Shown here piece after piece: positions 54,720 through 57,520 of a DNA stretch of 64,000 nucleotides (position 1 is the stretch's first letter; the number at the start of each line of letters is the position of its first letter). The notes under the pieces were generated by a model, which worked only from the letters and a program-made list of their open reading frames with translations, had not been told where the DNA came from and did no database searches. A program made the translations under genes and the position numbers. Source of the DNA: Mycolicibacterium neworleansense (lineage in GTDB: Bacteria; Actinomycetota; Actinomycetes; Mycobacteriales; Mycobacteriaceae); contig NZ_CWKH01000002.1 of NCBI RefSeq assembly GCF_001245615.1, positions 1-64,000 of the forward strand, in the 5' to 3' direction.

Positions 54720-56306
54720 TCAGCTCGCGAGGGCCTTCCTGGCGGACGCCTTCCTTGCAGACGTCTTTTTGGCAGGCGCCTTCTTGGCCGGTGCCTTGCT
54801 CGCGACGGCTTTCTTCTTGGCGGGCGCCTTTCTCGCGGCGGCTTTCTTCGCCGTGGCTCTGCTGGCGGGTGCCTTTTTCGCCGGAACCTTCTTGGCGGGT
54901 GCCTTTTTCGCCGGAGCCTTCTTGGCCGGAGCTTTCTTGGCGGCGGCCTTCGCCGGAGCTTTCTTGGCCGGCTTGGCCGGACGCGCGGCGGACAGCTCCG
55001 CCAGGCGGCTCTCGAGTATCGAGACGTACCGTCCCAGGCTTGCGACGTAGTCGATCAATGACTTGTCCCCCAGCTGGATCCAGCCGTTCCCGAGGGGCCC
55101 GCGCAGTTGCTCCCAGATCTCTTCGAGCAGTTCGCGGTCGGTGCGGGTGTTGGTCGGCTTGGGCAGGTGCGGCACCGGGGCCGGCGTAACCGCAACCGGT
55201 GTCGGTTCGCTGAACTCACCGCGCATCGCCTTGGCGACCTCGCCACGGAACCAGTCCATGCTGAGATTGCCCGGGTCCCATTTCCCCTGCGCGGACCCGG
55301 CCCACTCCTTGTGACCGATGTTGCGCTCGGCCCCGTATCCGAGCCGTGTGGTGAGCGCAGCGGCCACATCGCGCATCGAGATGATCTGCGCATCCGGCCA
55401 CCGCTCGTCGGCGCGATAGCTGCCGTCGGGGTTGATTGTCGGCCAGGCGCATTCGACCCCGATGAGCCGGTTGTTCGCCGCATTGGCAGGCAGGCCGAAG
55501 CCGCTACCCCGTCCAGAATGGTTGCAGACACCGACCGCGACGATGGTGACCGTCCCGTCAGGGGCGATGTGCAAATTGGCCAGCGGGCCCTGCAGATCGG
55601 GGCGGCCGGCTCGAATGCTCTCCGCCCTTTCCCGGCTGTTGCCCGTGTGGTGCCACATCACTCCCCAGATGTCGCCGAAATCCCCGACGCCCGAGTTCTC
55701 CCACCCCGCAAGGGTCTTCAACTTGTCTCCGAGAACGGGACGCAGCACCTCCTCCAGCCAGACCGGATCGCCGGCCCATCCGGCCTGTTGCTGCGCCGGC
55801 ACCTGAACTTGGCCGTTCAGGGCACGGGCCAGCACCTCATGTGCCTCGTCCCATTTCTCCCGGTACCGGTCAGGGAAGGCGCTGCCCTGCACAAGTTGGG
55901 CGAACACACCGGCCGAGTGTGCGTCGCGCGCGTTGACGTAATCATCGGACAACCGGTCCAGGAACATGTCTGCGGCGGCATCCAGCGTCATCCGCTGGCT
56001 GGCGGTGCCCCACCATGCCTCACCATTCGGCCCTGGTTGTTGCTGGAAGTAGCCGGACGAGCGGTTGTCGTCTGAGGTGGAATCGTGCGGGAAGCCTTCT
56101 GTATCAGGATCGTTCGTGGGGTTCGACGGGCACCACCACTGCCGGTTCCCGTTCCCGTCAGACGAGCCCACCTCGGTGGAGATGGTCATCAATGCGATGA
56201 TCGTCGCGGTTTCGGTCAGTCCGCGACGACGCGACACGGCGTGCACCTCCCGCGCAATCTGCTCGCGGGTCCTCAGCGGGGCGGGTTTGAAGGATGTGAA
56301 ACTCAT
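54720..56306 (-). CDS. lysA: Phage-type endolysin LysA with a Lys/Ala/Pro tail
   Basis: A 528-residue peptidoglycan hydrolase like mycobacteriophage LysA. Residues 1-165 are lytic-transglycosylase-like (STEVGS with candidate E45; GYFQQQPG at 85-92). Residues about 205-350 are a zinc amidase (Amidase_2/PGRP): WHHTGN (H219/H220), NHSGRGSG and GHKEWAGSAQGKWDPG (H332, D344). Residues 370-440 are a helical linker, and 441-528 are KKAPAKKAPAKK-type repeats like those of HbhA and HupB, where phage LysA normally ends in a wall-binding domain. No signal peptide or holin is seen. ATG 56306 has GAGG 9 bases upstream. lysB is 29 bases before it. Confidence 0.88.
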   Translation of the reverse strand: MSFTSFKPAPLRTREQIAREVHAVSRRRGLTETATIIALMTISTEVGSSDGNGNRQWWCPSNPTNDPDTEGFPHDSTSDDNRSSGYFQQQPGPNGEAWWGTASQRMTLDAAADMFLDRLSDDYVNARDAHSAGVFAQLVQGSAFPDRYREKWDEAHEVLARALNGQVQVPAQQQAGWAGDPVWLEEVLRPVLGDKLKTLAGWENSGVGDFGDIWGVMWHHTGNSRERAESIRAGRPDLQGPLANLHIAPDGTVTIVAVGVCNHSGRGSGFGLPANAANNRLIGVECAWPTINPDGSYRADERWPDAQIISMRDVAAALTTRLGYGAERNIGHKEWAGSAQGKWDPGNLSMDWFRGEVAKAMRGEFSEPTPVAVTPAPVPHLPKPTNTRTDRELLEEIWEQLRGPLGNGWIQLGDKSLIDYVASLGRYVSILESRLAELSAARPAKPAKKAPAKAAAKKAPAKKAPAKKAPAKKVPAKKAPASRATAKKAAARKAPAKKKAVASKAPAKKAPAKKTSARKASARKALAS

Positions 56307-56335
56307 TGGTGTTACCTCGAATTCGATGTGGATGG

Positions 56336-57520
56336 TTACATGCGTACCGACGTGCGATCGGCCCAGTCGCGCACGTGGTCGATGCCGAGTTGAAGGTAAG
56401 TGCGTCCGGGCAACACGTCGACGAATTCATAGGTGATGTGTGGCCTGGTCGGCGGCTGGGCGGCGAAGAACGTCAGGGCCAGGCGCGCGGCATGCACCGC
56501 GGCCGCGGTCTCGGAGCCGAATTGAGCCGGGACCACTCCCGGCAGCAGCGAGGAGACGAGCCCCGCCCAGACACCGTTGAGTATCCCGAGCGGATTGGGC
56601 GGCAAGTCCACACCCGCCTCGTCCAGAATCTTGATCAGATGCGGAATGACCTTCTGCATCATGCCGATCGGATCGCTGACCGTGGTATCCATGACGATGT
56701 TCTGACCTTGCCGGCAGACGTCACCGACGTCGCCCAACGGCACGTTGGCGTAGAAGTCGTCCGGTTGCACCAGCTCGCACCAATCCCAGGTACATGCCTC
56801 GCGGGGCAGATGGAAATTGCTGATGCCCTCCCCGTCCGGAACGGGGCCGAGGAAGAACGTATGCCCAAACGCCCGTGAGGGATTCGCGATCATCATGCCG
56901 CAGACATAGTTGTCGGCGAATTTCTCCAGGCGTCCTCCCGGCAGCAGCTCGGCGCGCACCTTGCTCGCGCCGATCGCGCCCTGCGAATACCCGAGCAGGC
57001 AGAAAGACCGCTTCGGATGCTGCTCGATCCAGTCGATGGCCAGCTCCACCGCGATATCGACCGAGTCGTTACCGCTCGGTGCGTTCGGGTTGTTCTCGGC
57101 GCCGACGGGAATGCCGCCCATCGAACCCGGATACAGGATCGGGATCTCTTCGAGGCCGGCAGCCTGCGCGACCCGGGACGTGTAGTCCATGCCGACGATG
57201 CCGCCCGTGCCACGGAACGTGAGCCCCGCGTGACGAGGAGGCGGAGGCGGAGGCCAGGCACCAAGGCGCACACGGGTTTTGAAATCGGCGATGCCATTTT
57301 CGGGCAGACCGACACGTCGTTGAAACTCGGTGACCGCATCGGCGGTGACCTGATCGTAGACGTCGCCCTCGGTGACGCCCATGGCGCGGGCCCAGTTGAA
57401 CTTGGCCACCAGTTTGTCGCGGATCAATGCGATATCGGGTCCGCTCATCGGCGGATCTGTCAGTTCGAAACCTCGCCACGTCATCAGCGGAGACCTTCCA
57501 CGGAAACCAATGCCGATCAC
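56336..57520 (-). CDS. lysB: Phage-type LysB mycolylarabinogalactan esterase
   Basis: A 394-residue cutinase-like esterase. The N-terminal part (about 25-90) is a peptidoglycan-binding-type helix bundle (VTADAVTEFQRRVGLPENGI). The hydrolase has the nucleophile elbow LLGYSQGAIG (S179), likely Asp in VMDTTVSDPIG and His in RPHITYEFVDV. LysB enzymes release mycolic acids from arabinogalactan so that phage can break the outer layer. Start may be GTG 57520 or ATG 57484; the latter follows GGAAGG. No signal peptide. It lies upstream of lysA in the same direction; no phage structural gene is nearby. Confidence 0.88.
   Translation of the reverse strand: MIGIGFRGRSPLMTWRGFELTDPPMSGPDIALIRDKLVAKFNWARAMGVTEGDVYDQVTADAVTEFQRRVGLPENGIADFKTRVRLGAWPPPPPPRHAGLTFRGTGGIVGMDYTSRVAQAAGLEEIPILYPGSMGGIPVGAENNPNAPSGNDSVDIAVELAIDWIEQHPKRSFCLLGYSQGAIGASKVRAELLPGGRLEKFADNYVCGMMIANPSRAFGHTFFLGPVPDGEGISNFHLPREACTWDWCELVQPDDFYANVPLGDVGDVCRQGQNIVMDTTVSDPIGMMQKVIPHLIKILDEAGVDLPPNPLGILNGVWAGLVSSLLPGVVPAQFGSETAAAVHAARLALTFFAAQPPTRPHITYEFVDVLPGRTYLQLGIDHVRDWADRTSVRM

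Follow-up and report, generated by a model that had tools for sequence, protein, structure and literature searches.

LysA and LysB are the enzymes by which phages burst mycobacteria, and it is known that prophage lysins can have effects on the bacteria that carry them. Endolysin-driven lysis together with vesicles is reported for mycolate bacteria, and in the C. glutamicum example a DNA-damage-induced endolysin encoded within the CGP3 prophage affects the host population (PMC7835258). A second report describes some phage LysAs that lyse M. smegmatis without a holin (PMC3314691). Here we analysed a window of 64,000 nucleotides from Mycolicibacterium neworleansense (GCF_001245615.1, NZ_CWKH01000002.1, positions 1-64,000, beginning at contig base 1), in which an LppP-like gene, lysB and lysA share one insert. 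The window resembles the CGP3 case in carrying phage-type lysin genes but has no prophage and no SOS-type site found by pattern search. Its lysins belong to the same families as those of mycobacteriophage lysis cassettes over nearly their full length (LysA at most 66%, LysB at most 43% identical), whereas the window block has no holin or phage genes, the order B-A, a tail on LysA and an LppP-like gene, and shows chromosomal synteny and selection.

Two host protein types were also compared with LysA. Chromosomal Amidase_2 proteins of ~290 aa, which we take to be Rv3594/Ami4-like, share an amidase domain that is 49-51% identical to that of LysA but lack its N-terminal lysin domain and basic tail; the M. 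neworleansense genome has one copy, with a peptidoglycan-binding-like C-terminus by eye. HBHA, like the histone-like HC2 and Rv3852, has Lys/Ala/Pro-rich C-terminal repeats resembling the LysA tail by eye; HBHA has no lysin domain, whereas the LysA tail is fused to a wall hydrolase. Among the titles and abstract openings of a literature search, with subscription papers mostly outside its scope, no description of orphan LysB-LysA pairs was found.

The initial annotation had placed intact lysB and lysA genes between ppk2 and a mycolate cyclopropane synthase gene, and family profiles, open reading frames and alignments confirmed this arrangement (Table 1). On the minus strand, the cyclopropane synthase gene is followed by the lppP-like gene, lysB and lysA, and ppk2 converges from the opposite side. 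Homology to the three nearest relatives stops at 54700-54714 and restarts at 58237-58238, delimiting the insert. The LppP/LprE gene, noted before as a neighbour that is not phage-like, is indeed present and not phage-like, but is part of the same insert.

Table 1. Features of the insert, in window positions.
Feature	Position	Strand	Evidence or context
Insert, ~3.5 kb (lppP-like, lysB, lysA)	54715..58236		between convergent ppk2 and cyclopropane synthase
LppP/LprE-like protein, 165 aa	57615..58112	-	Lipoprotein_21, E 1.1e-26
LysB, 382 aa, putative mycolylarabinogalactan esterase type	56336..57484	-	PHROG_102 E 6e-82; PG_binding_1; 3hc7 E 8e-4
LysA, 528 aa: N-terminal lysin domain, central Amidase_2, C-terminal domain, basic tail	54720..56306	-	PHROG_700 E 1e-112; 9hna; 8b2h
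LysA Lys/Ala-rich tail, residues ~440-528	54720..54989	-	net +17 in last 50 residues
Leader and terminator-like inverted repeat, upstream of LppP gene	58113..58198	-	identical in M. senegalense (alignment)

Both lysins had been described as full-length with catalytic residues in place, and this was borne out. The PHROG_102 endolysin profile spans LysB residues 13-391, the N-terminal part carries a peptidoglycan-binding motif, and S179, D255 and H382 (394-aa numbering), assigned from D29 LysB as the presumed catalytic triad, are present and invariant in the alignment. The D29 LysB structure (3hc7) is a weak sequence match, and none of 950 records reaches 60% identity. The full-length match and the Ser-Asp-His residues identify it as a mycobacteriophage-type Lysin B. 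Its 394-aa reading frame begins at a GTG at 57520. The ATG at 57484 is favoured as the true start, since P0001 and the M. senegalense ORF, two homologues of 382 aa, both begin there, and the gene end at 57520 given in the initial annotation is probably 36 bases too long.

LysA is covered by the PHROG_700 endolysin profile over residues 1-466, and its Amidase_2 match exceeds the Pfam cut-off. H219/H220, H332, K342 and D344, presumably the catalytic and zinc site, are all found in LysA and do not vary across the alignments made. Searches with the family profile found the amidase 9hna (E 8e-105) and, for the N-terminal part, the SH3b-domain protein 8b2h (E 9e-8) as solved relatives. With both its N-terminal and amidase domains matched, the protein is a mycobacteriophage-type Lysin A. 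The closest phage LysA is 66% identical over residues 1-424, beyond which the phage proteins do not extend.

Beyond this intact enzyme, follow-up revealed a basic C-terminal tail that had gone unmentioned. The best phage LysA matches stop at residues 424-430, and after a short stretch comes a Lys-, Ala- and Pro-rich segment of ~90 residues, with sub-cut-off matches to histone H1-like, HC2 and Rv3852 families. Taking a net charge of +8 or more in the last 50 residues as tailed, we found tails in 5 of 7 orphan LysA loci (window and L009, which are one lineage, +17 each; L010, +12; L108, +16; L268, +14; with L011 at +5 and L333 at +6), in 1 of 17 prophage-type loci (L341, +14; next highest L334, +5) and in 1 of 84 viral LysA-like ORFs (L200, +10). 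The basic tail is therefore a strong but not exclusive mark of orphan LysA. L200 and L341 (5070-6611), which are 90% identical to each other, represent a phage family with a Lys-rich LysA tail. In a tree of 128 LysA cores, built with the tail columns excluded, the window LysA fell within a clade of 18 rows (SH-aLRT 100), 15 of them labelled tailed, and two further clades of 10 and 13 rows (99 each) contained the orphans L010 and L108. No viral or prophage rows occurred in these three clades, most rows of which are database proteins of unknown setting. The median net charges of the last 50 residues were +10, +6 and +14 in the clades of 18, 10 and 13 rows, with 5, 7 and 2 rows, respectively, below +8. 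A 210-aa protein named HBHA-like by eye (50518-51150, minus strand), with Pfam matches all below cut-off, is encoded 3.6 kb from lysA and has a similar Lys/Ala-rich tail; a tail swap between the two neighbouring genes is conceivable.

To judge phage-likeness, a simple gene caller was applied and its genes were compared by BLAST with those predicted in 157 viral loci. In the window, 3 of 72 genes were phage-like (by eye a WhiB-type gene, a dehydrogenase and an XRE regulator), and the 40 kb that follow on the right contained one such gene among 39; none of these phage-like genes was structural by eye, the left edge of the window being contig base 1. In contrast, loci classed as prophages with a full-type LysA (L105, L107, L109, L271, L273-L276 and L285) had 8-19 phage-like genes among 21-29. 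The window contains no tRNA, and direct repeats of at least 14 nt are absent from the flanks of the insert. Viral loci carrying both genes have A before B in 54 of 55 cases, the lone exception (L127) being a partial LysB match that overlaps LysA, while the window has B before A. These results agree with the initial annotation, which had seen no integrase, capsid or tail gene and no attachment-site repeats and had called the gene order not phage-like. Accordingly, the insert does not qualify as a prophage or prophage remnant by phage-gene content, gene order, or attachment repeats and tRNA.

Synteny was then compared among relatives. In the complete genome of M. senegalense ATCC 35796 the block occupies the corresponding position, with 89.5% identity over 17 kb. 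In M. conceptionense, the reading of LysA P0086 runs on into antisense ppk2, which places it beside the same neighbour as the window LysA. LysA, LysB and LppP matches were absent from the junction in all 14 other relatives drawn from a set of 100 genomes (13 whole junctions; L102 ends 0.9 kb past ppk2), so that the description of the pair as fixed between housekeeping genes holds for the species group and not beyond it. The gap between ppk2 and the synthase gene contains an unrelated gene of ~0.9-1 kb in two of the three nearest relatives and ~60 bases in the third, showing that this is a variable spot at which the block was gained, or from which it was lost elsewhere. The unrelated gene (L091, 2027-2938; L092, 5026-6027) is DUF559-like by eye.

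Selection was examined by the Nei-Gojobori method for one species pair, the window against M. senegalense. Omega was 0.078 for LysB and 0.083 for LysA, in which residues 1-430 gave 0.053 and the tail 0.14; LppP had an omega of 0.141, compared with 0.025-0.114 for neighbouring genes (ppk2, TetR, synthase, dehydrogenase and isocitrate lyase), indicating that both lysins are under purifying selection in this pair. The dS values of the lysins (0.58 and 0.72) lie above the 0.08-0.40 of other genes; exchange with other lineages is therefore possible and may blur the selection test. A stretch of ~90 bases from the terminator-like inverted repeat (arms at 58157-58177 and 58180-58200) to the LppP start is identical between the window and M. 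senegalense, though nearby genes differ, reflecting either a constrained leader or recent exchange. Two findings had been named in advance as ones that would speak against a conserved function. Restriction of the pair to this strain with a prophage nearby was not what we saw, as a second species has the block and no prophage is near. As to relaxed selection with inactivated relatives, omega is low, but P0086 is frame-shifted after about residue 384 with its catalytic domains intact; this relative may have lost the normal LysA C-terminus, or the assembly may be in error in a low-complexity stretch.

The lack of signal peptides in both enzymes, as initially proposed, was upheld by hydropathy, the only measure applied (best 19-residue mean within the first 45 aa: LysA 0.52, LysB 0.40, LppP 2.43). 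Likewise, no holin was found beside the lysins: among ORFs of at least 30 aa in 54600-58350, the hydrophobic ones were LppP, with a single N-terminal hydrophobic segment, and one ORF antisense to the LysA tail. This very hydrophobic 93-aa ORF (54769-55050, plus strand) is probably a by-product of the LysA tail codons. Regarding regulation, no sigma-70-type promoter was found at the locus by consensus search, nor were LexA- or PafBC-like sites by pattern search.

The LppP-like protein has an N-terminal hydrophobic signal (peak at residue 8), in which no lipobox is recognisable by eye, and its AlphaFold2 model (pLDDT 85) gave no informative match in a fold search. Its family is widespread: of 396 genomes from the genus, 68 have a member matching with an E-value of at most 1e-25, and M. 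neworleansense has three genes; the M. farcinogenes LppP (P0205) is 88% identical to that of the window. An LppP-like gene also follows LysA at L333, another B-A pair, and, as indirect support, LppP and lysin proteins lie on contigs of coinciding size (47,648, 35,458 and 78,726 bases). These co-occurrences are suggestive of an association of LppP with LysB-LysA; none of the 8 other LppP loci read had lysins within ~6 kb, and none of 157 viral loci had the LppP family.

Several other orphan lysin loci were found. At L010 (Mycobacterium sp. URHB0044; 7989-14047), a tailed LysA with no LysB seen has as neighbours a CHAT protein, an Endonuclease_NS gene and two caspase-like genes, one of which was scanned, making this a possible programmed-death locus. 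At L108 (G054; 1476-15027), two large genes flank a tailed LysA and a LysB that is split over two frames; nSTAND1 and WD40 domains were found in the large gene that was scanned, and both large genes have a TIR-like start by eye. At L268 (G026), a tailed LysA lies near a PE-type gene (by eye), L011 (Mycolicibacterium sp. CH28) has a pair in the order A-B, and at L333 (G323) 0 of 17 genes were phage-like. L277, L278 and L280, otherwise phage-poor, encode an amidase protein of ~880 aa whose end is moderately basic (+5, +8 and +7); in L277 it is preceded by a LysB-like gene and has Peptidase_M23, glycoside-hydrolase-like and Amidase_2 Pfam domains. A short chromosomal amidase adjoins a LysB-like gene, amidase first, in L283 (9812-11925), L300 (9008-11054) and L301 (8716-10760), three genomes in which few or no phage-like genes surround the pair, and a lone LysB-like gene occurs in matching surroundings without phage-like genes in two genomes (L110, 5050-6243; L336, 7199-8392). 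No gene of a death or defence type adjoins the window locus, and PADLOC models gave no match for its LysA, LysB or LppP at E 0.001.

Taken together, the data give good support to the view that the block is a lysis operon domesticated by the bacterium and not the remnant of a prophage, and domestication as such is very probable. For its role, we favour, with a probability of about 0.4, a three-gene block derived from mycobacteriophage lysin genes and kept as the bacterium's own triggered self-lysis system. Self-lysis is preferred because the lysins have no export signals, holin-free lysis has a precedent, and two other tailed orphans, these being two loci only, have death-type neighbours. LysA and LysB would be made in the cytoplasm and stay there, and the LysA tail, like that of HBHA, would bind polyanions (DNA or envelope glycans), either parking the enzyme or holding it at the wall; for HBHA, the C-terminal domain is reported to be required for DNA binding (PMC10665949). 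A membrane breach through damage, the holin of an infecting phage or high expression would act as trigger, none having been found at the window locus. LysB would then cut mycolates off arabinogalactan and LysA would cut peptidoglycan, so that the cell bursts, with release of its DNA, of vesicles or of other goods, or with the early death of an infected cell.

Of the roles proposed initially, a domesticated device thus gained support over a phage remnant, while wall remodelling, a released weapon and self-lysis are all still candidates. As a released weapon, the lysins would be set free when a fraction of the cells lyses and would act from outside on other mycolate bacteria nearby, with the tail aiding envelope binding or crossing and LppP protecting the producer; this is unlikely. 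Breaching a mycolate envelope from outside would need LysB plus LysA, and LppP, the sole member with a signal sequence, recurs beside the distant pair at L333 and coincides with lysins on long contigs; however, the lysins have no export signal by hydropathy, LppP relatives stand without lysins at all eight other loci read, and the LppP fold search was uninformative. In the wall-remodelling reading, the pair would have been recruited as ordinary hydrolases of the envelope that reach it by non-classical export and serve growth, division or the turnover of mycolates. This would fit the purifying selection on both lysins, the location of the pair behind a same-strand gene for mycolate modification, and the related ~290-aa chromosomal amidases of mycobacteria, including that of M. 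neworleansense. Yet 14 of 14 relatives lack the block at this junction, export signals are absent, and the complete phage-type domain set, including the N-terminal lysin domain, is retained, so we consider this role quite unlikely.

A recent phage remnant that is still undecayed would account for the clear phage ancestry (PHROG matches), the restriction to a species group and the frame-shifted P0086 copy. This is improbable given an omega of 0.05-0.08 over a dS of 0.6-0.7, intact and selected copies already in two species, the lack of other phage genes nearby and of flanking repeats, and an order opposite to that of 54 of 55 viral loci. Finally, the genome carries a satellite-like element of ~11 kb (L347; G000:C2:1796000-1815900) with integrase- and terminase-like genes by eye, a capsid-like gene that is the genome's one Phage_capsid match, and no lysis gene recognised by eye, which the block could serve as a lysis helper. 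This is highly improbable, as the element lies 1.75 Mb from the insert on the same contig and a Phage_portal family search gave no match.

Returning to self-lysis and its wider setting, it is a doubtful but broader idea that mycobacteria have repeatedly made phage lysins into death or weapon systems of their own, often with a histone- or HBHA-like polycationic tail for storing or targeting the enzyme; here LppP would be a guard or immunity factor, in an LppP-LysB-LysA module unlike any phage cassette. A standing, selected LysB-LysA operon outside a prophage would let mycobacteria breach peptidoglycan as well as the mycolate layer with enzymes of their own, and would bear on how these bacteria release vesicles and DNA, on the death of cells attacked by phages and on the recurrence of polycationic tails on cytoplasmic and surface proteins.
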